DNA from: Bacteroidota bacterium
GTDB taxonomy: Bacteria > Bacteroidota > Bacteroidia > Chitinophagales > Saprospiraceae
Length of the DNA: 39,993 bases
Reading direction: 5' to 3'
Assembly: GCA_017858735.1 (NCBI GenBank)
Contig: JAFMBH010000030.1
Location: 1 to 39,993 of the forward strand
The position numbers and the translations under genes were made by a program. The notes below the pieces were generated by a model that did no database searches, had not been told where the DNA came from, and was given only the letters and a program-made list of their open reading frames with translations. Within the stretch, counting starts at the first letter, position 1, and each line of letters opens with the position of its first letter. Of this stretch, positions 1,653-24,259 are shown in pieces.

Positions 1653-2354
1653 TTATAAATCACCTTTTTGTGGACGAATAACTATTTCCTCTATCACGGT
1701 ATTTCCAGGCATTTCCCAGGCCTTCCAAACGGCATCGGCTACTGCATCAGCTGATAAAATCCTGTTTGCTTCCACGGGAATACCCTCCCAGGAAGCAGTT
1801 AATGTTTGGCCTGGCAATACTGCTGTTACTTTAATTTCCCTTTCTAAAAACGATGCCCGAAGCATTTTTGTCCAGGCTAACTGGGCTACTTTCGATATGC
1901 TGTAAGCGGGACTATCGAAACGGGGTTCATTGGAAACCACACTACAAACAGAAAAAATATGTGTTCCCTTTTTAAAAGAAGACTGCCATTTTTGACATAA
2001 AAAATGATTACTTAGCACATGCAATTGCATCAAATCATCGAGACTTGGACTATCATCGGGGTTTAACAGTTCGCCCATAGCAAACAGGCCTGCATTGAGC
2101 ACTAAAACATCCATTGATGTTAGTGTCGCCAAGGCAAACTGCGAAAGAGAGCTCAACTGAGATTTATCCATTAAATCAATCGAAAAAGTGGCAAATCGCT
2201 GAGCAGGAAATTTTTCTTGTAATTCCCCACTTCTTGCCTGCAGTCCTTCGATATCCCGGGCAATCATCAACAAATCAAAACCATTTTCAGCAAATCTATT
2301 AGCTATTGACCAACCAATACCCTTAGAAGCGCCTGTAATTAAGGCAACTGGCAT
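1653..2354 (-). CDS. Short-chain dehydrogenase/reductase (SDR)
   Basis: Second classical SDR of the tandem pair, 233 residues. Motifs: TGASKGIG at 7-14, NAG at 87-89 (preceded by Leu rather than Asn), Ser138, Tyr151 and Lys155 (YSISK), then VLPGQTLT in place of the common PGxxxT segment. It resembles 3-ketoacyl-reductase-like SDRs, but the substrate is unknown. It is the first gene of a two-gene operon and lies back to back with the MlaE gene across a 91-base region in which I find no full consensus promoter. The two SDRs differ clearly in sequence, so they are not a recent duplication. Confidence 0.87.
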   Translation of the reverse strand: MPVALITGASKGIGWSIANRFAENGFDLLMIARDIEGLQARSGELQEKFPAQRFATFSIDLMDKSQLSSLSQFALATLTSMDVLVLNAGLFAMGELLNPDDSPSLDDLMQLHVLSNHFLCQKWQSSFKKGTHIFSVCSVVSNEPRFDSPAYSISKVAQLAWTKMLRASFLEREIKVTAVLPGQTLTASWEGIPVEANRILSADAVADAVWKAWEMPGNTVIEEIVIRPQKGDL

Positions 2355-2445
2355 TATTTCTATTTATTTCTTAAACTGAATACGGCTTCTATTTGTTTAA
2401 TTTAATTAATTTTAACTTTTGAATCGTTGTTAATAAAAAAGGAAA

Positions 2446-3192
2446 GTGGTAATAGCTAAATTATTAGATCATCTGGGAAAGTATCTTATTTTGATGGGAA
2501 ACGCCTTTTCAAAGCCTGAGAAGACGTCCATGTACTACAGAGAGGTCATTCGACAGATGCATGACATTGGGGTAGGTTCCCTCATTATAGTTTTCATCAT
2601 TTCTCTATTTATCGGGGCAGTTACCGCCATTCAGTTTGCTTATCAGCTGGATGGTACTTTAGTGCCCGATTATTATATTGGCTACGTGGTAAGAGATATG
2701 ACCATTATAGAATTAGCGCCAACCATTACTTGCCTGGTTTTAGCTGGAAAAGTTGGCTCGAACATGGCTTCCGAAATTGGGGGTATGCGTCAGAAAGAGC
2801 ATATCGACGCCATGGAAATCATGGGTGTTAATACCGCTGCCTATCTGATAATGCCTAAAGTTTTAGCTGCCGTGATAATCATTCCCATTTTAGTAGCTAT
2901 CGCGGCTTTTGTGAGTATTGGTGGCGGATTTATTGCATCGGTTCCAACAGGATTGCTTTCAGGACAAGAATTTGTCATGGGATTAAGGTCATTTTTTATG
3001 CCTTACAATGTTTTCATGATGTTTGTTAAATCGCTGGTTTTTGCTTTTTTATTAACTTCCATTTCTTGTTATCAAGGTTACAACGTAAAAGGCGGTAGCA
3101 TAGAATTGGGAAAGGCAAGCACTAATGCCGTGGTTATTAGTGATATCATGATTTTATTGGCTGATTATCTGATTGCCGTAGTTTTAATTTAA
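2446..3192 (+). CDS. mlaE: MlaE-family ABC transporter permease
   Basis: Inner-membrane permease of the MlaE/YrbE family, which moves phospholipids between the inner and outer membranes. 248 residues with about five hydrophobic segments; the family core is visible as ELAPTITCLVLAGKVGS and then ASEIGGMRQKEHIDAMEIMG. The start is GTG at 2446, just after an AAGGAAA sequence; a TAA at 2431-2433 in the same frame rules out a longer protein. The ATPase gene follows after 18 bases. In E. coli this permease works with MlaF, MlaD (an MCE protein) and MlaB; no MCE gene is adjacent here and must lie elsewhere if the system is complete. Confidence 0.92.
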   Translation: MVIAKLLDHLGKYLILMGNAFSKPEKTSMYYREVIRQMHDIGVGSLIIVFIISLFIGAVTAIQFAYQLDGTLVPDYYIGYVVRDMTIIELAPTITCLVLAGKVGSNMASEIGGMRQKEHIDAMEIMGVNTAAYLIMPKVLAAVIIIPILVAIAAFVSIGGGFIASVPTGLLSGQEFVMGLRSFFMPYNVFMMFVKSLVFAFLLTSISCYQGYNVKGGSIELGKASTNAVVISDIMILLADYLIAVVLI

Positions 3193-3210
3193 TATGCTTT
3201 ACATAGACTT

Positions 3211-3984
3211 ATGATAAAAATTAGCGGAATTTATAAATCGTTCGGAAATACGCCTGTTCTAAAAAACATTTCGGCCGAGTTTCAACCTGGAAAGACCAAT
3301 TTAATTATTGGAAAATCAGGGGCAGGAAAAACGGTGCTTTTAAAACTATTGGTTGGCTTAATCGCGCCAAATGAAGGGCAAATTTTTTACAACAAGGTAG
3401 ATTTCCTACAATTAAAAAAGAAGGATTTAAGGACTTTAAGGATGAAAGTAGGTATGCTTTTCCAAGGCTCAGCTTTATTTGACTCCCTAACGGTGGAGGA
3501 AAATATTCGGTTTCCACTGGATATGTTTACCGATTTGACGAAAAAAGAAAAATCTGACCGGGTTAATACCTGTTTAAATAGAGTAAGTTTAGATGGAATC
3601 AATGCAAAATTTCCATCGGAATTAAGTGGTGGTATGCAGAAAAGAGTAGGTATTGCTCGAGCCATTGTTTTAAACCCTTCTTATCTTTTTTGTGATGAAC
3701 CCAATTCAGGACTTGACCCAAAAACTTCTTTAGTCATTGACGAACTGATTAAAGACATTACTATTGAAAACAATATGACTACCATCATTAACACCCACGA
3801 CATGAACTCTGTAATGGAAGTTGGTGATAATGTGATACTTCTGCATGAAGGTGAAATTTGTTGGCAAGGAAATAAAGATGAAATCATGTCTAGTGACAAT
3901 GAAATATTACATGACTTTATTTTTGCATCTCCCTTCCTGCAAAGATTACGCAATGCTGCTGTATCTAATGGTTTTCACATATAA
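3211..3984 (+). CDS. mlaF: MlaF-family ABC transporter ATP-binding protein
   Basis: Cytoplasmic ATPase partner of the preceding permease, 257 residues. Complete set of ABC motifs: Walker A GKSGAGKT at 34-41, Q-loop Gln85, signature LSGGMQKR at 138-145, Walker B YLFCDEP with catalytic Glu163, D-loop SGLDP, and H-loop His196 in NTHD. The signature with GGMQKR is typical of the MlaF/Ttg2A group. The C-terminal tail DFIFASPFLQRL also matches the group. Probably co-transcribed with the permease. A tRNA with its own promoter begins 74 bases after the stop. Confidence 0.93.
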   Translation: MIKISGIYKSFGNTPVLKNISAEFQPGKTNLIIGKSGAGKTVLLKLLVGLIAPNEGQIFYNKVDFLQLKKKDLRTLRMKVGMLFQGSALFDSLTVEENIRFPLDMFTDLTKKEKSDRVNTCLNRVSLDGINAKFPSELSGGMQKRVGIARAIVLNPSYLFCDEPNSGLDPKTSLVIDELIKDITIENNMTTIINTHDMNSVMEVGDNVILLHEGEICWQGNKDEIMSSDNEILHDFIFASPFLQRLRNAAVSNGFHI

Positions 3985-5881: not shown

Positions 5882-8059
5882 ATGCAATTGTATATACATA
5901 GTTTCTTAGCCCTTTTCTTTTCCCTATATTCCTTATCCATTTTTTCAGCGTGCCAGTTTAAATCACAAAATTTAAATTATTTTCCTCTTATTCAGTCATT
6001 TATAGTAAATCCAACCGCTCCCGCTTCCCCATATTTCACCTCCTTTAAAGATATTTATTTAAAATTTGGGAAGCAAACCATCCTTCAACCCAATGAAAAT
6101 ATCAATGAGTGGTATGAGCGATTTTGCGAAGTAGCTCCTCTTTCAGATATTGAATGGCTAATTTACCAATCTGACTTATCTGATATTCAAGAATTAAAGA
6201 ATGCTGTTATTCAAAATACAGGATTAATCACCTACCTAAGGACTAATAAATTTGCCCGGCATTTGGTGAAAAACAAGTGCTTGGAAACTATTGAATATCT
6301 GCTATTTGCAAAGAAATGCGAACCATTTGTTACAGCAGATAAAGATGTCTGGCAAACTAAAAAACCAGATATTCAAAATATGGAAGCATTGATTCAAGAG
6401 GGTACAAAAGAATTTTTAACCATTGAATCTCACTATATCAGATTAAGGATGGCCTATCAAATCATACGATTAGCGCATTATTCGGGTCAATTTAGTAAAG
6501 TAAAATACCTGTACAACTATTTTATACCTAAAATTAATCATGCACCAAGCACCATTCAGTATTGGATTGAGGGTCATTATGCAGGGGCACTTAAAGCACT
6601 GGGAGAAAGAGCAAAAGCTGCATATTTCTACGCCAGAGTTTTTCACCATTGTCCCGCAAAAAGAGAATCTGCCTTTTTAAGCTTTGAAGTGAGAACAGAT
6701 AATGACTGGCTAAATGCTCTTTCTTTCTGTGAAAATGACCAGGAACGCACGGCTTTGTATGCATTAAGAGCCAGTTTTAGAAATAGTAGAGCCGTTGATG
6801 AAATGATTGACATTTATAGTCTTCATCCAAAAAGCAACTATTTAGAATCTATTCTCATTCAAGAAATAGAAAAACAAGAAAAAAAGCCGGTAGTTGAGTA
6901 TATTAAAAAACTTGACACTTTTGTAAAACAAGTGATTGATGAAAAAAAAGTAGCCCATCCGGAAATCTGGCTCCTGGCATTAGGGTATTTAAAATACTTA
7001 AATAACGATTATTTTGAAGCCAAATTGGCTTTTAATGCAGTAGCAGAATATACCCAATCTAAAGCTCTTCTGGAACAAATAGCCATATTCAATGTGGCCA
7101 TTGAAATAAAAGAATGGGAAAAAATAAATAAGGAAGTTGCTCAACGTATCTGGGAATTTCAATCTGAAAATGAAGTATTTAATAGATACCCTATCCTTCA
7201 GTTATTATTATCAAAACAAGTTTTCCAAGGTTTGAAAAATCATGGAAATCCAGGACTTGCTGTGTTATATAAGTTTGGACTTAATGCCGTAAAAGTTAAC
7301 CCCAGTGAAGAGGTTATCCGTGATATAAAAGAATTAGCGAAAAAAGAAAATATTAATCCTTTTGAAAAGAGCCTCATGGTTCTTTCAAAAAAGCAATTCA
7401 ATACTGAAATTCAAGTGCTTTATGCTACCTGGTTAATGAACTTAAATGAATGGGAGGCAGCTGAAAAAGCCTGGCAGGAAATTCCCCTTGCTGATATCGA
7501 ATTATTTGGAAAATCAAATCCATTTGTTGAAAGATTAAATGAATGCGTCCATTGTCCGGTAAAATCAAATGAAAGGCAATTAACGAAACCACAAATTGTA
7601 GCTGAAATGTTGAAATTACAATATGACATTAAAGCGAACAGAACAGAAAGTCCTCAATACTACTATAAAATGGGACTTGGCCTTTATAATATGTCCTATT
7701 TTGGTTATGCCTGGAACGTCATCGATTATTTCCGAAGCGGTTCCAGTCTTAAGGCCGAAAGGTTAGAAAAAGCTTCGGACAGGATGAAACACCCTCTTTT
7801 CCCTAACGGGAATAGAGAAAACGTTGATTTATCAAAAGCACTAGGCTACTTTGAAAAAGCCATTACATTGAGTACGGACAAAGAATTAAGTGCCAGAGCG
7901 TCCTTTATGGCTGCGCGTTGCGAACAAAAAATGTCTCATGTTACCAAAACAGCTAACAAAAGAAAGTATTTTGCCCTATTGAAAACAAAATACAAGGATA
8001 CCCAATATTATGATAAAGTCATTGAAAGCTGCAAGTATTTCAAATATTATGTCAACTAA
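5882..8059 (+). CDS. Large putative lipoprotein with helical repeats, function unknown
   Basis: 725 residues. The N-terminus has a hydrophobic signal ending in SIFSAC (Cys24), a loose lipobox, so it is probably exported and lipid-anchored. The rest is mainly helical, with TPR/Sel1-like pairs of helices, for example around YWIEGHYAGALKALGERAKA and a C-terminal segment KALGYFEKAITLSTDKELSARA. A short conserved-looking stretch is HHCPAKRESAFLSFEVR. I recognise the overall pattern from Bacteroidota proteins of unknown function, but no enzyme motif is visible. It follows the Crp/Fnr gene by 12 bases and may be its co-transcribed neighbour. Convergent with the mutase gene. Confidence 0.75.
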   Translation: MQLYIHSFLALFFSLYSLSIFSACQFKSQNLNYFPLIQSFIVNPTAPASPYFTSFKDIYLKFGKQTILQPNENINEWYERFCEVAPLSDIEWLIYQSDLSDIQELKNAVIQNTGLITYLRTNKFARHLVKNKCLETIEYLLFAKKCEPFVTADKDVWQTKKPDIQNMEALIQEGTKEFLTIESHYIRLRMAYQIIRLAHYSGQFSKVKYLYNYFIPKINHAPSTIQYWIEGHYAGALKALGERAKAAYFYARVFHHCPAKRESAFLSFEVRTDNDWLNALSFCENDQERTALYALRASFRNSRAVDEMIDIYSLHPKSNYLESILIQEIEKQEKKPVVEYIKKLDTFVKQVIDEKKVAHPEIWLLALGYLKYLNNDYFEAKLAFNAVAEYTQSKALLEQIAIFNVAIEIKEWEKINKEVAQRIWEFQSENEVFNRYPILQLLLSKQVFQGLKNHGNPGLAVLYKFGLNAVKVNPSEEVIRDIKELAKKENINPFEKSLMVLSKKQFNTEIQVLYATWLMNLNEWEAAEKAWQEIPLADIELFGKSNPFVERLNECVHCPVKSNERQLTKPQIVAEMLKLQYDIKANRTESPQYYYKMGLGLYNMSYFGYAWNVIDYFRSGSSLKAERLEKASDRMKHPLFPNGNRENVDLSKALGYFEKAITLSTDKELSARASFMAARCEQKMSHVTKTANKRKYFALLKTKYKDTQYYDKVIESCKYFKYYVN

Positions 8060-15592: not shown

Positions 15593-15628
15593 AAAGCCTT
15601 TACAGTACTGTAAGGGCTTTTTTTTTGT
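15593..15628 (+). terminator. Rho-independent terminator after glgP
   Basis: Stem AAAGCCTTTACA (15593-15604) with TGTAAGGGCTTT (15609-15620), one G-T pair, GTAC loop, then a run of eight or more T. It begins 39 bases after the phosphorylase stop. Confidence 0.9.
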
Positions 15629-15678
15629 CTAAAGGTGTGTTAGGGGATTTACGTCAATTATTTTCCAAAATGGGGTCT

Positions 15679-15712
15679 TTCAACAAAGATGTACTTATAT
15701 ATCTTTGTTGAA
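15679..15712. promoter_or_regulatory. Perfect palindrome upstream of a Crp/Fnr gene, candidate operator
   Basis: TTCAACAAAGAT (15679-15690) and ATCTTTGTTGAA (15701-15712) are perfect 12-bp inverted arms around 10 bases. The right arm covers TATCTTTG (15700-15707), an exact TAnnTTTG match, although no TTG stands at the right distance upstream. The dyad ends 16 bases before the ATG at 15729, so a bound dimer would block transcription of the regulator. Autoregulation is inferred. Confidence 0.55.
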
Positions 15713-15728
15713 TGTAATTCACTCAACA

Positions 15729-16298
15729 ATGGACATTTTGTACCAAAGGTTTATAGACCATTATTCCAGTAGTCAACAACTAACTGACCATACGAAAGCA
15801 GAAATTTGCAATCATTTGTCAATCTTACATTTGAATAAAAAGCATGTACTTATTAAAGAAATCCAACGGCACGATTTTGCTTATTTTGTCATAAAAGGGG
15901 CAGTGAGAAGTTATTTTCTGAAGGATGGGATTGAAGTGAATACCTGGTTTGCTTTAGAAAATGATATGGTTGGTTCATTACAAAATTTTAATGACAAGCC
16001 TTCGAAAGAAACCATTGAGCTGGTCGAAAATAGTACTCTAATCTCAATCAATATAAAAAAGCTAAAACCCTTAATGTTTTCAAATATTCAGATTTCCAAT
16101 TTCATCAATGCCGTAATTGAAGAGTACGCCCTATTTTTGGAGGAAAAGATTTACTTTTCTCAAATGATGAATTCAATTGATAAATATCTCATTTTATTAG
16201 ACAAAGAACCGCAACTTTTCCAACGAATACCATTAACATATATCGCTTCCTTTCTTGGCATTACCAGAGAAACATTGAGTCGATTGCGAGCAAAATGA
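15729..16298 (+). CDS. Crp/Fnr-family transcription regulator
   Basis: 189-residue regulator if it begins at the ATG at 15729. A TTG 24 bases upstream is in frame, but it lies inside the palindrome and -7 element, so the ATG is preferred. The cNMP-binding-like barrel covers about 25-115 (FAYFVIKGAVRSYFLKDGIEVNTWFALENDMVGS); the C-terminal helix-turn-helix is IPLTYIASFLGITRETLSRLR, ending almost at the C-terminus, as is common in the phylum. The ITRETLSR recognition helix keeps the Arg-Glu-x-x-x-Arg spacing of E. coli CRP. The acyltransferase-like gene follows 59 bases downstream and may be its target. Confidence 0.87.
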   Translation: MDILYQRFIDHYSSSQQLTDHTKAEICNHLSILHLNKKHVLIKEIQRHDFAYFVIKGAVRSYFLKDGIEVNTWFALENDMVGSLQNFNDKPSKETIELVENSTLISINIKKLKPLMFSNIQISNFINAVIEEYALFLEEKIYFSQMMNSIDKYLILLDKEPQLFQRIPLTYIASFLGITRETLSRLRAK

Positions 16299-16301
16299 TT
16301 T

Positions 16302-16317
16302 TGTGACATATATCAAA
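16302..16317 (+). promoter_or_regulatory. CRP-like binding site
   Basis: TGTGA-N6-TCAAA, one base from the E. coli CRP consensus TGTGA-N6-TCACA, 3 bases after the Crp/Fnr stop and 40 before the ATG at 16358. Just downstream is CATTTTTG (16340-16347), one base from TAnnTTTG. Chance occurrence in AT-rich DNA is possible. Confidence 0.3.
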
Positions 16318-16357
16318 TGAAATCATTTTTCAGCATCCCATTTTTGCAGTCTAAAAA

Positions 16358-17461
16358 ATGATACCAAAGATGAATGTAACCACGCAAACCAACCGACTTC
16401 TATCTATTGACCTTGCCAGAGGCATGGCCGTATTTTTTATGATTGCGGTTCATACACTTGAAGTTTTTGCAAACCCGGAAGTAAAAAATTCTATACTCGG
16501 ACAGATCATAGAATTCCTGGGAGGACCACCAGCCGCTCCTGTATTTATGACTTTGATGGGATTTTCATTTATCTACTCAAGAAAATCAGAATTAAAACCT
16601 AAACTTTTACGTGGGTTTAAAATATTTTTAACCGGATACATTTTAAATATCATAAGGGGGGTCATTCCATTTACCCTTTCTACTTATCTTAATATGGATA
16701 TTGCAAAAACATTTCAGATAGAGCAACTGAATGCGTACACCATTTTCACTATAGTAGATATTTTACAATTTGCTGGAATTGCCCTAATAATAATGGCAAT
16801 CATTCAAGCGCTTAACATTAATAAGTACCTTGTATTATTGTCAGCATTTGTAATTAGTATGATTTCGCCATTTCTTTGGGGAATAAAATTAGATATACCA
16901 ATAATAGACCAGGTATTAGAACTGATTTGGGGAGACCAGCCAATAGAATGTAGCTTTATTGCAAATAAAATCGCATTTCCTGTTTTCCCCTGGCTTACAT
17001 TTCCTCTATTAGGGATGTTTCTTGGAGAAACGGTAAAAAATTCAAATGATTCTAATAGAATATTTAAACACTTTGGTATTGCCGGAATATTAGTTTTATT
17101 GCTGGGCGTGGCCATTTCTTATCAAAATTTTGCATATCATTTCAATGACTATTATCATAGCCGTCAAGGTGCTATGTTATTTATGTGTGGGTTTGTACTA
17201 TTTTGGCTATATCTCAATACATTAATTTTAGACAATTTACCTGAGAATAGACTTTTTAAATTACTATTTAAATGGAGCAAAGGCGTGACAAATATTTACT
17301 TTGTTCAATGGATAATTATTATTTGGAGCATTGCCTTTTTTGGCATTAATAGTAGCTCATTTGCCACTACTGTTTTATTAATTTTGGTCTTCACGGCAGT
17401 ATCACATTATACCAACGAATGTATCATTTACCTTCAAAAAAAAGGATTTGTGAAGAGGTAG
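16358..17461 (+). CDS. Acyltransferase-like multispanning membrane protein (DUF1624/HGSNAT-like)
   Basis: 367 residues with about ten hydrophobic segments. The N-terminus RLLSIDLARGMAVFFMIAVHTLEV is the hallmark of the DUF1624/heparan-glucosaminide-acetyltransferase and related acyltransferase families, in which the histidine at the end of the first helix is the likely catalytic or acyl-carrying residue. A short loop with GGPPAAPVFMTLMGFSFIYS follows. Such proteins are thought to move acyl groups across the inner membrane onto sugars or other acceptors; the acceptor is unknown. ATGs at 16358 and 16370 are both possible starts. The upstream CRP-like site suggests control by the adjacent regulator. 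Confidence 0.8.
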   Translation: MIPKMNVTTQTNRLLSIDLARGMAVFFMIAVHTLEVFANPEVKNSILGQIIEFLGGPPAAPVFMTLMGFSFIYSRKSELKPKLLRGFKIFLTGYILNIIRGVIPFTLSTYLNMDIAKTFQIEQLNAYTIFTIVDILQFAGIALIIMAIIQALNINKYLVLLSAFVISMISPFLWGIKLDIPIIDQVLELIWGDQPIECSFIANKIAFPVFPWLTFPLLGMFLGETVKNSNDSNRIFKHFGIAGILVLLLGVAISYQNFAYHFNDYYHSRQGAMLFMCGFVLFWLYLNTLILDNLPENRLFKLLFKWSKGVTNIYFVQWIIIIWSIAFFGINSSSFATTVLLILVFTAVSHYTNECIIYLQKKGFVKR

Positions 17462-17644
17462 AATGATAATAAATAGCATATCGCCAAGGACTTTGAAGTT
17501 TTAATGGTAAACCTGGAAAAAGTTTAATCCTTTAAATTCCTGATAGTTACAAAATAAACCATTGCCTTATGTTTACAGCTTTTTTTCTAAGGAAAGTAAA
17601 TATTAAGCATTTTAAACTTTATTTCTAACTTCAACTCATTAAAA
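17462..17644. other. Non-coding stretch, nothing recognised
   Basis: AT-rich spacer between the acyltransferase-like gene and the truncated small gene. I see no hairpin terminator, full promoter match, RNA gene or plausible reading frame here. The whole gap to 17951 otherwise holds the gene fragment at 17645 and the half-site cluster at 17874. Confidence 0.5.
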
Positions 17645-17794
17645 ATGAATACAATGTTATTCCCTAAAATATCGATAATACTTAATATTCTTGTGTTCAT
17701 TCCTGTTTACTCAGGAATACTTCTGCAGGCCAATTGGGCTGTTGATTCGTATGGAATTGAAACGCCAGCACGAGGCATTTTGCTTTCTATCTGA
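17645..17794 (+). pseudogene. Truncated small membrane-protein gene
   Basis: A 49-codon frame. It encodes one hydrophobic helix followed by NWAVDSYGIETPARGILLSI and then TGA. The YGxxTPARGILLSxY segment is, from memory, a conserved core of ~100-residue two- or three-helix proteins of unknown function in this phylum, which continue with SIYLAI and more helices. Here the stop falls just where the conserved Tyr is expected; skipping to the next frame after TCTAT gives CTGAAAATTACAGAT (LKITD) for another 18 or so codons, as if one base had been lost. Probably a decayed gene, or else a shortened functional version. Confidence 0.5.
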
Positions 17795-17873
17795 AAATTA
17801 CAGATACATCTTTTAAATCTCAAATAAACTCCCTTTTTTAACTTTTTTTTTCACAATCTATATGTAATATTGC

Positions 17874-17917
17874 TTTGGACAAAGCTTCATGTCGTCCAAA
17901 TGACGCCTATTTGTCCA
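17874..17917. promoter_or_regulatory. Cluster of GGAC-type half-sites upstream of the XRE gene
   Basis: TTTGGAC (17874-17880) and GTCCAAA (17894-17900) form a perfect 7-bp dyad; the overlapping TGGACAAA (17876-17883) is also mirrored by TTTGTCCA (17910-17917). The cluster ends 34 bases before the ATG of the XRE regulator, a usual place for a self-operator. The link to that protein is inferred. Confidence 0.4.
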
Positions 17918-17951
17918 TAATTTATCCATTTACTCATGTCATATTTGCAAT

Positions 17952-18332
17952 ATGGAATTTGGAGCAAGACTAAAAGAGATTAGAACAAGTTTGAACATCT
18001 CTCAAAAAGAACTTTCAGAACAGACAGGATTAACCCTTAGAACGATTCAAAGAATTGAGAATAAGGAGGTAAAGCCAAGTCTTTATTCATTAAAAGTTAT
18101 TGGAGAGGTATTGAAAACCGACTTGTCTGAATTTGTTAAACCATCCAATACCAAACCCTATGAGTTTAATTTAACCCTTAAAATTACAGATATGAATCAA
18201 TTTCTAAATGACTTAAAAGCCTTAGTAATTAACCACTCTAAAACAATTTTCATTATTTTTTTAGTAGTTTATCTATTCACAAGTTATGCTGATATTAAAT
18301 CGGGCATAATGGATGCATGGAATGGTAAGTAG
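17952..18332 (+). CDS. Membrane-anchored XRE-family regulator
   Basis: 126 residues. A Cro/C1-type helix-turn-helix covers about 3-62 (RLKEIRTSLNISQKELSEQ, TLRTIQRIENKEVKPSLYSL). After a short polar linker, residues 96-112 (SKTIFIIFLVVYLFTSY) form one transmembrane helix, leaving a short tail on the other side. A single C-terminal helix in an XRE protein suggests that DNA binding is tied to the membrane, perhaps controlled by a membrane partner. The half-sites upstream may be its operator. The next gene, a secreted protein, begins 66 bases downstream. Confidence 0.87.
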   Translation: MEFGARLKEIRTSLNISQKELSEQTGLTLRTIQRIENKEVKPSLYSLKVIGEVLKTDLSEFVKPSNTKPYEFNLTLKITDMNQFLNDLKALVINHSKTIFIIFLVVYLFTSYADIKSGIMDAWNGK

Positions 18333-18398
18333 CCATCTTGAAAAATCAATAAATATGAAAACCAATCTTAATTTAACAATATATTATTAAATTAATTT

Positions 18399-18923
18399 AT
18401 GCGAAAGTTATTTATCATTTACTTTTTATTCGTTTTGTTTCCAATGACTGGTATGTCACAGGAAACAAAAGTACAGGTAACTGAAAAAGTTTCCATCAGC
18501 TTCCCTGGAAAACCCGATGTTCAAAATATACAGATTGGAAGTACGCTTTATGTGGTAAAATTAGCCGATGGAACTGCTAATTTTAATGCTGTCGTTCAGA
18601 ACTTATTGGACATTGGACAAACTACAAAACAGATTAAATCACAACAGTTAAATCCTGGTTTCTGGGAACAGATGGAACTTTCTCTTATTGCACCGTATGG
18701 CTCTGAAACGAAGGTTTTAGCAAGAGAAATCAAAAAGATTGGGAGTAAAGAAGTATTAAGCCTTGCATTTAGTGCAGTGATTAATGGTATGAACAGAGAG
18801 ATAAACTCTTATTTCTTCATAGAAGGTGTTCATAGTATTAATATCGTGCACTACAAGAGAGCTGATAGTGCTTCAATAGAATTAAAAAACAATTTTTTTA
18901 ATTCGATCAAGATATTGGATTAA
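18399..18923 (+). CDS. Secreted protein of unknown function
   Basis: 174 residues with a clear signal peptide (MRKLFIIYFLFVLFPMTGMSQ, cut after about residue 20). The mature part starts with VTEKVSISFPGKPDVQNIQIGSTLYVVKLADGTANFNAVV, a beta-rich opening seen in several exported Bacteroidota proteins of unknown role, and has no cysteine or catalytic motif. Expected in the periplasm or outside. It lies 66 bases after the membrane-anchored XRE gene and may be its partner or target. A terminator follows 111 bases after the stop. Confidence 0.75.
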   Translation: MRKLFIIYFLFVLFPMTGMSQETKVQVTEKVSISFPGKPDVQNIQIGSTLYVVKLADGTANFNAVVQNLLDIGQTTKQIKSQQLNPGFWEQMELSLIAPYGSETKVLAREIKKIGSKEVLSLAFSAVINGMNREINSYFFIEGVHSINIVHYKRADSASIELKNNFFNSIKILD

Positions 18924-19034
18924 AACTTCAAAATTTGATTTTAAGAAGTATATCTCCTTGATTTTTTCATAATTACATGCTCTATCATCGTATTATGGTT
19001 TCATCTTTCGTTTGTAAATGGAGCTACCCCAGGC

Positions 19035-19066
19035 AATCCATCCCTCAGCTAACGGATGGATTTTTC
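19035..19066 (+). terminator. Rho-independent terminator
   Basis: AATCCATCC (19035-19043) pairs perfectly with GGATGGATT (19054-19062) around a ten-base loop, followed by T residues. It probably ends the transcript of the XRE and secreted-protein genes. It lies in a 398-base gap that otherwise holds only the hairpin at 19190-19210 and no full promoter match that I can see. Confidence 0.75.
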
Positions 19067-19189
19067 TTTGTCTATCAGCGAGTTAGAATTACTGCATCTT
19101 TTGACTATTTCAGGTGGACATTTTCTACATTTTAACAACTATTCATTGTTTCATTTTTCGATTTAATATCCAGTTGCTTATAAAATTAT

Positions 19190-19210
19190 ATCTGAAAAAT
19201 CATTTCAGAT
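19190..19210. repeat. Perfect 8-bp hairpin upstream of the signalling cassette
   Basis: ATCTGAAA (19190-19197), five bases, TTTCAGAT (19203-19210). It lies 111 bases before the first ATG of the four-gene cassette and is a candidate operator, for example for the LytTR regulator encoded there. There is no T tract, so it is not a terminator. Confidence 0.35.
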
Positions 19211-19321
19211 TAGGTATATATCATTTCACACGATTTTCAACGGAGTTCATCAATATAATTATTACTACTATTATTTCTTGTAGAAGTTTGTAGTGTTCAA
19301 TCATATTTTAACTTTTACAAC

Positions 19322-19636
19322 ATGAAAAAAGTAATTTTATTTATTGCATTCTTAACGACTAGCCTTGCAGCTAATGCGCAGAGTACAGAAAAATATTACT
19401 CAACAAAAAGCAAATTTTATTACTCATTTGCATGGGGGCTTTTAACGTCCAAAAATTTCCCAAAGGACAAATCAGCAGTATTTGAATTTGAAAAATCTAA
19501 GGATTCAAATTCATTATCAGAGCCGCCCTCTAATAGCACAAAATATGAGCAAAAAAGTATTCTTTGGGGAGCTATCCAATGGACAGAAAAGAAAAATAAT
19601 GTTTCATCAACTACATCCGAAAGCAATGGAAAATAA
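19322..19636 (+). CDS. Small secreted protein, first gene of the signalling cassette
   Basis: 104 residues. A textbook signal peptide (MKKVILFIAFLTTSLAANA, cut before QSTEKYY) leads to a mature part of about 85 residues rich in Ser, Thr, Lys and Asn, with an aromatic segment KFYYSFAWGLL and another, SILWGAIQWTEKK, then a polar tail. There are no cysteines and no known domain. Its last 11 bases overlap the start of the CPBP protease gene, so the two are translationally coupled. It could be a precursor or partner of the membrane protease and the sensor kinase that follow; that role is inferred only. Confidence 0.7.
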   Translation: MKKVILFIAFLTTSLAANAQSTEKYYSTKSKFYYSFAWGLLTSKNFPKDKSAVFEFEKSKDSNSLSEPPSNSTKYEQKSILWGAIQWTEKKNNVSSTTSESNGK

Positions 19637-20456
19637 TTTTATTCATTCCGCCAGTTTAGGGAAGAATGAATGGTGGCGTTATATATTGACTATTTTGACC
19701 ACTGTATTTACCATCGTCCTAACTAATTTATTGATCCGTAAATTACTGCCAACCATAAAAAAATTATTTCCTGATAGTGATTTTGGTAAAGATTTGGGCA
19801 CTTACAGTCTTGTTTTATTGGTATTCGGTATGGCTCTTTTCGCATTTCTGGTTGCCGCAAGGAAATTCCATCATAGACCAATAATGTCTTTTATTAGCGA
19901 GGATCGTAAATTCAGATTCAAATACTACTTTTTAGGATTCATTTCGTGGGCATCCCTACTATTTATTGGAAATTTAATTACAGATTTTGGAAGTTTTAAA
20001 GCCTTCATCCAAAATTTCAACCTCGCAGAATTTTCATTTCTACTTTTAATTGGCTTTATTTCCATAGGTATTCAGTCCTTTTTTGAGGAAATTGTCATTC
20101 GTGGATATTTTTTACAAGGTCTTCACCTGTGTATCAGGAATATTTTAATTCTCATACTTTTAAATGCGTTAATTTTTGCTATTTTACACTTGGGCTATGG
20201 CATAGGAAGTTTTCTTTCTTCCTGGCTATTTGGGATTACGTTTACCATAATTGTAATTCTGCAAAAAAGAATAGAATTTGTATCGGGCGCACATAATGCC
20301 AATAATTTATTATTGGCCCTTGTGTTTTTGGATTTATCTGATGTAAGTAAAGAAGAATTTAGCTGGTCAATTAATTGGACTGAATTTAGCTTACACATTG
20401 CTGCTTTATTACTGCTAATTGGATTGGTTTATAGGTTTTTAAGCAAAAAAGAATGA
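19626..20456 (+). CDS. CPBP-family intramembrane metalloprotease
   Basis: 276 residues from the ATG at 19626. A longer frame to 19482 would run inside the preceding gene and has no signal of its own, so the ATG in the overlap is preferred. About seven hydrophobic segments. The CPBP (Abi/CAAX-like) signature is complete: FFEEIVIRGYF with Glu154, Glu155 and Arg159, the second motif FAILHLGYG with His188, and HNANN with His223 and Asn227. Such proteins are zinc-independent or metal-dependent glutamyl proteases acting within the membrane, known for CAAX-type processing and for bacteriocin maturation or immunity. The kinase gene overlaps its stop by 4 bases (ATGA). Confidence 0.92.
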   Translation: MENNFIHSASLGKNEWWRYILTILTTVFTIVLTNLLIRKLLPTIKKLFPDSDFGKDLGTYSLVLLVFGMALFAFLVAARKFHHRPIMSFISEDRKFRFKYYFLGFISWASLLFIGNLITDFGSFKAFIQNFNLAEFSFLLLIGFISIGIQSFFEEIVIRGYFLQGLHLCIRNILILILLNALIFAILHLGYGIGSFLSSWLFGITFTIIVILQKRIEFVSGAHNANNLLLALVFLDLSDVSKEEFSWSINWTEFSLHIAALLLLIGLVYRFLSKKE

Positions 20457-21424
20457 GGATAAGAGTAATATATCACCTTGCATTTTGGGGATTCTTTACT
20501 TTTCTTTTTTATCAGCAGAACCAGGGAGCGAATGCACTTGAGTACCTAAAATGGCTTACCGTTCTTGGAATTTCTGCCATAATTGTTTATGTAAATCTTT
20601 ATCTACTTTTTCCAAATTATTTTTTCAGGAAAAGATATTTGATTTATTCATTATTTCTAATTCTTCTTATTGGCTTAGGTGCTTTTTCGCTAAGATCAAT
20701 TTTTAACACAGGACATTCTACTTTTGCAACAACTTTTTTTCAACATGGTATAAATCTATTTTTCTTTATTGTCATCACAAGTTCTTTTAAATTTTTTAGA
20801 GAATATAAACGTAAACAAGCGTTGTTAATATTAGCTGAAAACGAACAACTCAAAACGGAGCTTTCTTTATTAAAGTCCCAGGTGAACCCACATTTTTTAT
20901 TTAATACACTGAATAACTTATATGGGTTAATCATACAAAATCAAAACATAAAAGCTTCAGAAATTACGCTAAGGCTTTCTGATTTAATGCGTTATATACT
21001 AAAAAGCAGTAAAGAAACAAAAGTAAACCTGCAAGATGAGATCAAATTTATTGAAGATTATTTGACTATAGAAAAAATTCGGCTAACAAATAATGTTGAA
21101 ATTAAATTTGAATTTTCTGGAATAGATAAAGATATTTTAATCGCCCCATTGTTATTCATTCCAATGGTGGAAAATGCTTTCAAGCACGGATTGCAGAATA
21201 TTTCACTGGATAATTACGCACACTTTTTTTTATCCATACAAGGAAATGAGGTATTTTTTGAGGTTGAAAATTCAATTGGAAGAAAAACAGATAAACAAAC
21301 CAACAGTGGAACAGGCTTAATTAATCTTCGAAAAAGATTGCAACTAATCTACCCTCAAAAACATCAATTAGAAATAAATAAAACAGAAACTAATTTTAAA
21401 GCTATTCTATACGTGGAATTATGA
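20453..21424 (+). CDS. LytS-type sensor histidine kinase
   Basis: 323 residues. Four membrane helices near 5-22, 34-54, 62-80 and 95-113 form the sensor, with no large outside domain, followed by a short coiled coil and a HisKA_7TM/His_kinase domain. The phosphorylated histidine is His147 in SQVNPHFLFNTLNNL; the ATP site has Asn241 in PMVENAFKHGL and the G-box NSGTGLINLRKRL near 285-297. It is paired with the response regulator that begins in its last codon, and overlaps the protease gene upstream. The sensor is a helix bundle, so the signal is more likely membrane-borne or a small peptide than a bulky ligand. Confidence 0.93.
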   Translation: MRIRVIYHLAFWGFFTFLFYQQNQGANALEYLKWLTVLGISAIIVYVNLYLLFPNYFFRKRYLIYSLFLILLIGLGAFSLRSIFNTGHSTFATTFFQHGINLFFFIVITSSFKFFREYKRKQALLILAENEQLKTELSLLKSQVNPHFLFNTLNNLYGLIIQNQNIKASEITLRLSDLMRYILKSSKETKVNLQDEIKFIEDYLTIEKIRLTNNVEIKFEFSGIDKDILIAPLLFIPMVENAFKHGLQNISLDNYAHFFLSIQGNEVFFEVENSIGRKTDKQTNSGTGLINLRKRLQLIYPQKHQLEINKTETNFKAILYVEL

Positions 21425-22146
21425 AATATCAATGTTTAATAGTGGATGACGAGCCAGTTGCTCAACAAATATTGGAAAAATATATCAATCAAATTGAAGC
21501 ACTTCATTTAATAGCAAAATGCAGTAATGCTTTTGAAGCAATGAATATTTTGCATCAGGAAAAAGTTGACATCTTATTTCTGGACATTAAAATGCCTTCA
21601 CTTTCCGGGATAGAAATGCTTAAAACCATACAAAATCAACCTAAAGTAATTTTAACAACGGCCTTTTCAGAATTTGCTGTTGAAAGTTATGAATATGGCG
21701 TTATTGATTACCTTCTCAAACCCATTGCTTTTGAACGTTTTTTGAAAACAGTAAATAAAATCCTGCTACCCCAAAATATAGACTTTAATAATGGCAAGGC
21801 TGAAGAAAAGCTTACTATACAACCTACTTTTATTTTCTTTAAGGCAAATAAAAAAATCTTTAAGTATTATTTAGTTGATATACTTTTCATTGAAGGAAGT
21901 GGCAATTATATTAAAGTCCATACCCAGAACGATAAGCCTCTTATGGTTTTAGATAAATTAACGGATTTACTGGAGAAATTACCTCCCAGACAATTTTTAA
22001 GAGTGCATAAATCATTTATTATTAATATTTCACATATTATAAAGATAGAAGGGAATGTCCTATTTATCAGAGATAGAGAAATTCCAATTTCAAATACATT
22101 TAGGAAAGATTTAGATGAGGTGATACAACGTAATCTCCGCCTATAG
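21421..22146 (+). CDS. LytTR-type response regulator
   Basis: 241 residues. Receiver domain 1-120 with acidic pair Asp9-Asp10, phosphorylated Asp55 (LFLDIKMP), Thr80 and Lys100 (LLKP). The C-terminal LytTR DNA-binding domain occupies about 137-238 (DILFIEGSGNYIKVH, FLRVHKSFIINISHI, ISNTFRKDL). It is the cognate partner of the kinase, whose stop overlaps its start by 4 bases (ATGA). LytTR proteins usually bind paired direct repeats upstream of their targets; none is obvious, but the hairpin at 19190-19210 is a candidate. Confidence 0.94.
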   Translation: MKYQCLIVDDEPVAQQILEKYINQIEALHLIAKCSNAFEAMNILHQEKVDILFLDIKMPSLSGIEMLKTIQNQPKVILTTAFSEFAVESYEYGVIDYLLKPIAFERFLKTVNKILLPQNIDFNNGKAEEKLTIQPTFIFFKANKKIFKYYLVDILFIEGSGNYIKVHTQNDKPLMVLDKLTDLLEKLPPRQFLRVHKSFIINISHIIKIEGNVLFIRDREIPISNTFRKDLDEVIQRNLRL

Positions 22147-22330: not shown

Positions 22331-24259
22331 TTATGGCTCTAAACGTTCAATGAGCCTTGCGGAAATTCGGAGAAAATCCATTTCCGTTATGATGCCTATT
22401 AATTCTCCATCAGTAACCACTGGAAGGCAGCCAATTTTCTTTTCGCGCATGATATGAAGCGCTTCTATGATTGATTTTCCAGGCTCAATAACGATCGGGG
22501 AACTAATCATGATATCTTCAACCGTTTGCTGTTTGTTTCCCTCTTTTATAGAAATACCTTTTTGGCTATAAAACCTAAGGAGCAACCTGGAAGTTATTAA
22601 TCCACAAATATTACCCTTTTGATCTTCCACTGGCATATATCTGATCTTTCTCCAATCCATTAATTTTGCTACCAACTCAATGAGGTCATCTTTCGAGACA
22701 GTAAAAAGATCTGTTTGCATAAATTCCTCGACCCTCAAATTCCCCGGTCTATAATCCAGCAAATCTTTCAATTCCGGTAATTCCCAGGTATGGACAGGTT
22801 TACCCAAATTCTGATTTTCATAAATGGCGCTAGTCATTACAGTTACTGCCTCGTCCATACTTGTTTCTTTTTTCAGCTTGGTAAAAGCGCGAAGCTGCCA
22901 TCTTGCACCATTCAAATTTAATTTTGCTCGTTGAGAAATAATATCCATATAAAAATCAATATCACCTGCATTTATACCCTGAGCGGCAAGGCCTTCTTTT
23001 GCCAAAGGTATAAGCTCTTCATTGACAAGATCGGTTACGGTAATTTTCTTATCTTTAAACCAGGTAAATTTCGAATCAATTCCAAAACGAGCTGCTTTCT
23101 CAAAATTATCTCTTACATCTTCCCAGCTCATTTTTTTTCTGATATCTCCCCATTCTTTCGCACAGCCAACAACTGCGCCCAACCAAAGTGCCGCATTTGC
23201 TATTTCATCAACTACGGTAGGACCTGCGGGTAATACTCTGTTTTCTATTCGAAGATGAGGTTTTCCGGTATCACTAATACCATAACATGGTCTATTCCAT
23301 CTGTAAACTGTAGAATTATGTATTTGCAACGCACTTAATTTGGGTATTTTTCCTGCGAGGACAACCTCCATGGCATTTTCATTTGTTTCAGGATAAATTA
23401 ATGACCTAAATCGCGCAATATCTTCTTTGTAAATATCCAGAATAGAATGGTGAACCCAATCGGATCCAAAATTAACTCTTGGACTCCTTTCCCGCATGTG
23501 CTCATTAGTTGTTCTGACATCTAAAGCCTGTTGAAAAAGGGCAATTCTGGATTCGTGCCATAAACGACGACCGAAAACAATGGGAGAATTGGCCGAAATA
23601 CCCAAAACAGGAGCAGTAAGCGCTTGAGCTATATTATAATAAGGGACAAAATTTTCCGGATTAACTTGCAAATGAACTTGAAAACTTGTATTTGCCGCTT
23701 CCAAAAGAGGGGTATGACTTCTAAGTAATAATTCATCAATGCCTTGAATTCTTAATTCAAAAGCTTGTCCCAATAATTGGGCACTAAGTGATTCCACCAA
23801 TAATTTATACCTTTCCCGGGGTGTTAAATTATGAGATTCCAGATCATTTTTATGTAGTGTTGGTAAAATACCAGTAAGTAATATATCTGAATTAAAATGA
23901 GCTAATTCCGTTTTAATAATCTGTAATTTTTCATTTGTTTCTGCCTCCATATCTTTAAGTGCAGAGCCAGTGAAAACGCGTGGATCAAGATTTATTTCCA
24001 GATTAAATTTTGCCAATTCCGTATCTAACCAGGGCATATCTTTAAGTAAATCAATAATTTCCAACGCGATAGGCGCTGCCTTAAAAGATTTTTTTTGAAT
24101 AATGCACATTTCTTGTTCAGCACCTATTCTGGTTACCCCTTTTTCAAAAATGGAATTATGTAACATATACTCCAATGCTTGCATATCCTGCAAAAGATTG
24201 GAAACGAATTGTTGCCTGCCAGGTTCTCCTTTTGCTTTTTTAAATTTTTTCTCACCCAT
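22331..24259 (-). CDS. GCS2-like glutamate-cysteine-ligase-family protein with two CBS domains
   Basis: 642 residues. The N-terminal ~420 residues resemble the GCS2/YbdK carboxylate-amine ligase fold: RIGAEQEMCII near 42-52, FNLEINLDPRVF, FQVHLQVNPENF, and NFGSDWVHHSI. These enzymes join glutamate to an amine with ATP, as in the first step of glutathione synthesis, but the true substrate of this subgroup is not established. A linker leads to two CBS domains at about 509-565 and 579-638 (VEEFMQTDLFTV, VEDIMISSPIVI), which normally bind adenine nucleotides and would make activity depend on energy state. It stands alone, convergent with the two-component genes. Confidence 0.82.
   Translation of the reverse strand: MGEKKFKKAKGEPGRQQFVSNLLQDMQALEYMLHNSIFEKGVTRIGAEQEMCIIQKKSFKAAPIALEIIDLLKDMPWLDTELAKFNLEINLDPRVFTGSALKDMEAETNEKLQIIKTELAHFNSDILLTGILPTLHKNDLESHNLTPRERYKLLVESLSAQLLGQAFELRIQGIDELLLRSHTPLLEAANTSFQVHLQVNPENFVPYYNIAQALTAPVLGISANSPIVFGRRLWHESRIALFQQALDVRTTNEHMRERSPRVNFGSDWVHHSILDIYKEDIARFRSLIYPETNENAMEVVLAGKIPKLSALQIHNSTVYRWNRPCYGISDTGKPHLRIENRVLPAGPTVVDEIANAALWLGAVVGCAKEWGDIRKKMSWEDVRDNFEKAARFGIDSKFTWFKDKKITVTDLVNEELIPLAKEGLAAQGINAGDIDFYMDIISQRAKLNLNGARWQLRAFTKLKKETSMDEAVTVMTSAIYENQNLGKPVHTWELPELKDLLDYRPGNLRVEEFMQTDLFTVSKDDLIELVAKLMDWRKIRYMPVEDQKGNICGLITSRLLLRFYSQKGISIKEGNKQQTVEDIMISSPIVIEPGKSIIEALHIMREKKIGCLPVVTDGELIGIITEMDFLRISARLIERLEP

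Follow-up and report, generated by a model that had tools for sequence, protein, structure and literature searches.

CPBP proteases are common in bacteria and few of them have been studied, according to the extract of PMC10482373 used here, and in the literature surveyed, likewise in extracts, the members with a link to signalling belong to Gram-positive bacteria. In Firmicutes, MroQ cuts AgrD intermediates, and SkkI offers a CPBP precedent in immunity (both in PMC10482373). A role of these proteins in bacteriocin immunity is also remarked upon in PMC9298176, whose extract reports for SilX, the CPBP protein of a bacteriocin locus, that no immunity role was shown and that it may process SilCR. 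Other members work with sensor kinases: Abx1 interacts with the CovS kinase, its proteolytic activity being dispensable (PMC10482373; PMC3578759), and SpdC, an Abi-domain protein, controls kinase activity (PMC5854430), again as given in extracts.

We describe here a four-gene operon of a Bacteroidota bacterium with a genome of 4.23 Mb, found within a window of 39,993 nucleotides (the whole stretch of DNA analysed). As in staphylococcal Agr with MroQ, a CPBP protein is associated with a membrane kinase, a LytTR-type regulator and a small precursor. Agr, however, is a Gram-positive system that relies on AgrB and a thiolactone peptide, whereas our operon has a signal-peptide protein and a PF06580 kinase, and no member of the AgrB family was found within the operon itself, in the four genes preceding it or in the first genes that follow it. 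Nor does the mature small protein contain the cysteine that a thiolactone precursor needs, either in the window or in a related locus of another lineage (L122), and it carries a nearly unchanged segment instead of a diversifying sequence. Streptococcal Sil resembles the operon in that its two-component quorum-sensing locus adjoins a gene for a CAAX protease, but SilX may, judging from the extract, act in pheromone export and processing within a bacteriocin cluster, whereas no exporter or bacteriocin family was found in the four genes that precede our operon or the one that directly follows it. Abx1-CovS and SpdC are alike in that a CPBP or Abi membrane protein acts with a sensor kinase, a partnership to which in our operon gene adjacency alone points; they differ in their kinases (CovS, WalK), in the independence of Abx1 from proteolysis, and in that the extracts name no small partner gene.

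The kinase-regulator half is an ordinary Bacteroidota LytS/LytTR pair (other matches in the class sample are 33-39% identical), and it is the CPBP gene beside LytS that sets the operon apart: none was detected within about 1.5 kb at 46 other LytS loci, 17 in the genus and 29 elsewhere in the class, by a method that could miss distant CPBPs. The parts are of known kinds, and for their combination we found no earlier description. No account of a CPBP-LytS-LytTR arrangement in Bacteroidota appeared in a literature search covering titles and the openings of abstracts, with most subscription journals outside its scope, and the terms CPBP, CAAX and LytS are absent from the extract of the review PMC8895600. 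A small partner whose gene overlaps that of the CPBP protein, followed by a kinase, makes a candidate substrate-protease-sensor set for Bacteroidota.

Four overlapping genes and their products

The operon (19322-22146, plus strand; Table 1) comprises four genes with consecutive overlaps of 11, 4 and 4 bases. This layout, and the integrity of the protease, kinase and regulator motifs, are as the original prediction had them. It also took the overlaps as the sign of a coupled unit; the recurrence of the order elsewhere, with the 11-base and the LytS/LytTR 4-base overlaps kept in L122, puts the arrangement beyond chance, but the single stoichiometric unit that it proposed is more than overlaps can show.

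Table 1. Coordinates of the features discussed (window numbering unless residues are given)
Feature	Position	Strand	Description or basis
Non-coding region similar to L122; candidate promoter/operator	19197-19321	+	alignment with L122
16-base block identical in L122	19221-19236	+	TCATTTCACACGATTT
Second similar block	19281-19301	+	TAGAAGTTTG(T/C)AGTGTTCAAT; alignment of window, G002, L122, G664
Small protein gene	19322-19636	+	104 aa; apparent signal peptide; no known family
CPBP (Rce1-like) intramembrane protease gene	19626-20456	+	276 aa; PF02517; motifs intact
LytS-type (PF06580) sensor histidine kinase gene	20453-21424	+	323 aa
LytTR response regulator gene	21421-22146	+	241 aa
Nearly unchanged segment	small protein residues 73-91		TKYEQKSILWGAIQWTEKK; alignment with L122

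Profiles and motifs place the three larger proteins in their families. The protease matches PF02517 (E 7e-11) and carries EEIVIR at 154, FAILH at 184 and HNANN at 223, of the EExxxR, FxxxH and HNxxN classes; the motif residues are invariant in all four aligned sequences, which suggests that catalysis matters. A second CPBP protein of the host genome (C57) has different neighbours, with no LytS match. The kinase matches PF06580 (E 1e-26), with NPHFLFN at 145, and has the acceptor histidine and what we take to be the N and G boxes. Hydropathy gives three N-terminal hydrophobic regions above threshold (28-58, 57-87 and 90-109), an additional helix at 3-22 being present only in a low-confidence AlphaFold model (pLDDT 52), and no outer domain was seen in profiles, hydropathy or that model. 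The regulator combines a receiver (PF00072, E 4e-23, with LDIKMP at 54) and a LytTR domain (PF04397, E 4e-18). Membership of the four genes in a defence system was considered and rejected: PADLOC gave no match for the small protein, CPBP or LytS, and two weak receiver matches for LytTR.

The small protein has no Pfam family at E 1 and a single NCBIfam match of 13.7 bits against a cut-off of 400 bits; we found no earlier description of its family. Its signal peptide is called from the hydrophobic stretch at residues 4-22, the only one by hydropathy, and the sequence ...ANAQ. With this signal peptide and no exporter family in the neighbouring genes, the protein would be expected in the periplasm. 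Its AlphaFold model (pLDDT 55), like that of the kinase, is of too low a confidence to support a search for similar folds. The original prediction proposed a look for conserved positions in the mature part, and these do exist: residues 73-91 are identical to L122 at 18 of 19 positions, compared with just 5 of 19 aligned residues in 51-72. Within the segment, third codon positions are alike at 14 of the 18 identical residues, against 0.53-0.57 in CPBP, LytS and LytTR, so that an extra constraint at the DNA level may act on it. A long N-terminal extension of the CPBP protein across the small gene was rejected as the cause of the segment's conservation, given a stop codon in that frame in L122.

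Occurrence in the genus and in other lineages

The cassette lies at the same place in three of the seven genomes of the genus (G000, G001, G002), the same three that hold LytS orthologues at 98-100% identity, other LytS matches of the genus being 25-38% identical. G003, G004 and G005 have no small-protein match, and G006 has a decayed piece that aligns to 19533-19670 of the window (77% over 139 bases) and runs from the last part of the small gene into the first part of CPBP, with broken frames and the junction of the two genes retained. As this relic lies near the neighbouring HTH gene (17889-18330 of the window, 86%), the cassette was probably present at this place early in the genus and then lost in one line.

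Outside the genus the small protein is hard to find. Among 60 relatives it has four matches at E 0.01, all within the genus, and among 248 genomes of the family, only G000, G002 and G006 match better than E 0.02 (G001 is absent from that listing). The original prediction depended on the small protein keeping company with CPBP and LytS genes, and no convincing match was found apart from CPBP. The weak matches outside the genus and the secondary weak ones within it (E 0.002-0.1; 11 of 14, 41 of 42 and 5 of 8 in three listings) were counted as chance and their neighbourhoods left out; 27 of the 52 in the first two listings contain internal stop codons. For CPBP, the 60 relatives yield 20 matches, G000, G001 and G002 plus 17 others at 25-33% identity. 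CPBP and LytS together were not detected around those 17 loci, nor around 29 LytS and 29 CPBP loci of the class samples (395 genomes each), in a survey of the best-scoring loci with flanks of at most 1.5 kb, taken from the best of 58 LytS and 31 CPBP matches, own genome included. Neighbours were recognised in it by similarity to the window proteins and an EExxxR expression, which could miss distant CPBPs, and the CPBP loci L155-L158, L124 and L125 lie outside it.

In the order (396 genomes), a CPBP profile recovers the host genome and four others, at 3e-28 to 1e-25 against 2e-162 for the own copy. The CPBP searches of these 396 and of the 395 class genomes, in which LytS and CPBP were scored, for most genomes, on the top 5-6 candidates, thus return only distant relatives besides the own copy, and the cassette appears to be rare. 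A scan of the contigs of 84,980 species, which requires that one of six CPBP patterns of 8 residues be matched exactly and so misses divergent relatives, gave seven loci: two CPBPs at 27-29% identity and L119 to L123, of which L119 is the same DNA as G001, L121 the same as G002, and L120 has a cassette identical to that of G001. Of the five loci L119 to L123, only L122 and L123 lie outside the genus; in the families of their MAGs, of 13 and 4 genomes, the CPBP profile recovers just the respective MAG. Searches of plasmids, viral contigs and, by sequence, solved structures gave nothing informative, and Rfam yielded chance-like matches and no relevant family.

L122, on a 7.1 kb contig of a Cytophagales MAG, has the small, CPBP, LytS and LytTR genes in order, at 58, 63, 64 and 68% identity. 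The 4-base CPBP/LytS overlap of the window is not kept, 2 bases separating these genes in L122 and 10 in L123. The latter, on a 4.3 kb contig of a Flavobacteriales MAG, has CPBP-LytS-LytTR, the contig starting inside CPBP; at 3-2081 the CPBP is in frame with an erythromycin-esterase-like domain (PF05139, E 6e-18), directly before LytS-LytTR, through either a natural fusion or a sequencing error. The small-protein profile finds only weak matches in the genome of L123 (best E 0.002, with internal stops). Both contigs are short and may be misbinned, which makes the order assignments uncertain. Between the window and L122, dN/dS is about 0.25 for the small gene, 0.10 for CPBP and 0.13 for LytS, with dS saturated (above about 1). 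Between the window and G002 the changes are few: 7 replacements and 3 synonymous in the small gene (0.59), 7 and 2 in CPBP (0.95), 2 and 2 in LytS (0.26), and 0 and 6 in LytTR. On these small counts, the small gene and CPBP seem weakly constrained within the genus.

The similarity to L122 extends to the DNA before the small gene. Over 125 bases, a gapped alignment has 88 identical positions, and 200 first-order Markov resamples aligned in the same way reach 66.6 on average and 79 at most; in the last 60 bases 46 are identical (resamples: mean 31.3, highest 39). In the genes, third codon positions agree at 55% for the small gene and at 45-49% for CPBP, LytS and LytTR, but those alignments are not optimised base by base, which leaves the random control as the fair yardstick. 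By itself, the 16-base block TCATTTCACACGATTT is barely beyond chance, as exact matches between 300 resampled pairs reach 15 bases, and at up to three mismatches it occurs nowhere else in the window; the second block is identical to L122 at 20 of 21 positions. The region is a candidate conserved promoter or operator, in which no LytTR site was identified; a scan for sigma-70-type promoters found 14, with 26 expected. Order, overlap and upstream similarity together argue for one regulated unit. An order confined to this strain would have counted against a dedicated system, and the full order with similar upstream DNA is found in another lineage; judged by sequence, the four genes are a real unit and not a one-strain accident.

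The L122 operon lies by itself between hairpins that appear to resemble integron attC sites. There are three such alignable elements (1939-2061, 3739-3862 and 6827-6949), whose AACATT cores start 16, 9 and 12 bases past a stop codon, which belongs to a sigma-factor-like gene in the first, to a Fic-domain gene in the second and to LytTR in the third. Their minus strands fold with z of -4.4, -2.6 and -2.4 against shuffles, and the single plus strand folded gives -1.7. No integron integrase is present among the five other ORFs scanned in L122. The four-gene operon looks like one integron gene cassette, possibly in a gene-cassette array of the Cytophagales MAG, and its position suggests that it travels without target genes. 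The cassette is a real and rare unit that also occurs outside its genus and is apparently mobile. A 139-base repeat (91%) follows the first and third elements, and the Fic-domain protein of the neighbouring cassette (2272-3729) matches PADLOC SoFic at E 2e-25.

Possible roles of the operon

Our tentative preference, held with less than even confidence, is for a self-contained, horizontally moving envelope-response operon. The membrane-embedded LytS kinase would detect a signal in or through the membrane and phosphorylate LytTR, which would act on the operon's own promoter, an autoregulation suggested by similar DNA alone. The small periplasmic protein and CPBP, possibly substrate and protease, would act jointly as the effector arm, a part that CPBPs play in some settings of bacteriocin immunity, and could also influence the kinase in turn. 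Since the cassette carries no other target gene, the benefit should lie in this pair. We count for it the order of L122, the 11-base overlap, the upstream identities (which exceed 200 of 200 random controls), the patchy presence, the low G+C, the L123 fusion, the dN/dS of about 0.25 for the small gene against L122 (with dS saturated), the lone position of the L122 operon between attC-like hairpins, and the CPBP immunity precedents (SkkI, PMC10482373; PMC9298176). Against it stand the high within-genus dN/dS of the small gene and CPBP, few as the changes are, the lack of an attC-like hairpin at the window operon, the low-confidence models of the small protein and the kinase, the absence of an immunity role for SilX (PMC9298176), and an outside record of two short MAG contigs that may be misbinned; LytTR may also act on chromosomal genes elsewhere instead. 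A bolder version, possible but doubtful, has an autoregulated, mobile Gram-negative signalling and immunity cassette that moves as a four-gene integron cassette, its CPBP effector served by a new periplasmic partner family with a near-fixed 19-residue segment.

The segment also bears on whether the operon signals by peptide, as the original prediction suggested by analogy with Agr and bacteriocin systems: CPBP would cut the small protein, and a piece, probably around residues 73-91, would be the ligand of LytS. Retention of the small-CPBP overlap in L122 fits this, and Firmicutes CPBPs do process peptide signals (MroQ on AgrD intermediates, PMC10482373; SilX possibly on SilCR, PMC9298176; extracts). 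However, a segment so nearly invariant across lineages is unlike a diversifying pheromone, the mature part lacks the cysteine for a thiolactone and any hydrophobic region, and no exporter family adjoins the operon. Bacteroidota moreover have an outer membrane beyond the periplasm. The analogy fares poorly against these points and we consider peptide signalling unlikely. CPBP could also be an accessory subunit or a protease of the kinase, the latter being the alternative named in the original prediction, with the small protein as a periplasmic regulator of the CPBP-LytS pair; L123, in which CPBP-LytS-LytTR has a different partner domain, agrees with this, as do the extracts on Abx1-CovS (PMC10482373, PMC3578759) and SpdC (PMC5854430), but the invariant motif residues suggest that catalysis is important, and we would call such a role rather unlikely, by analogy as it is drawn. 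That four ordinary genes share a mobile island without functioning together is quite improbable: CPBP and LytS genes are common, the distribution is rare and patchy, and two of the genes are weakly constrained, but order, 11-base overlap and upstream similarity are repeated in another lineage and the G006 relic retains the small-CPBP junction.

Genomic setting of the window operon

No attC-like hairpin lies beside the window operon, where folding gives z of -0.1, -0.3 and -1.6 upstream and 1.2 and 1.2 downstream; the stretch with -1.6 is two-sided owing to a terminator-like stem at 19035-19060. The operon has 30.7% G+C compared with 35.0% for the whole window, and 4 of 149 overlapping segments are as low, the minimum falling on the operon itself. 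The low-G+C stretch 15600-22146, possibly one island, also holds genes for a CRP-like regulator, an acyltransferase-like membrane protein, an HTH protein and a 174-residue protein with an apparent signal peptide. In G001, some 2.5 kb of additional DNA lies at the left edge of this stretch. Synonymous sites in 17952-22146 diverge from those of G001 by 0-0.07, compared with 0.16 for the CBS-domain gene at 22331-24259, and the former segment was perhaps exchanged recently between species.
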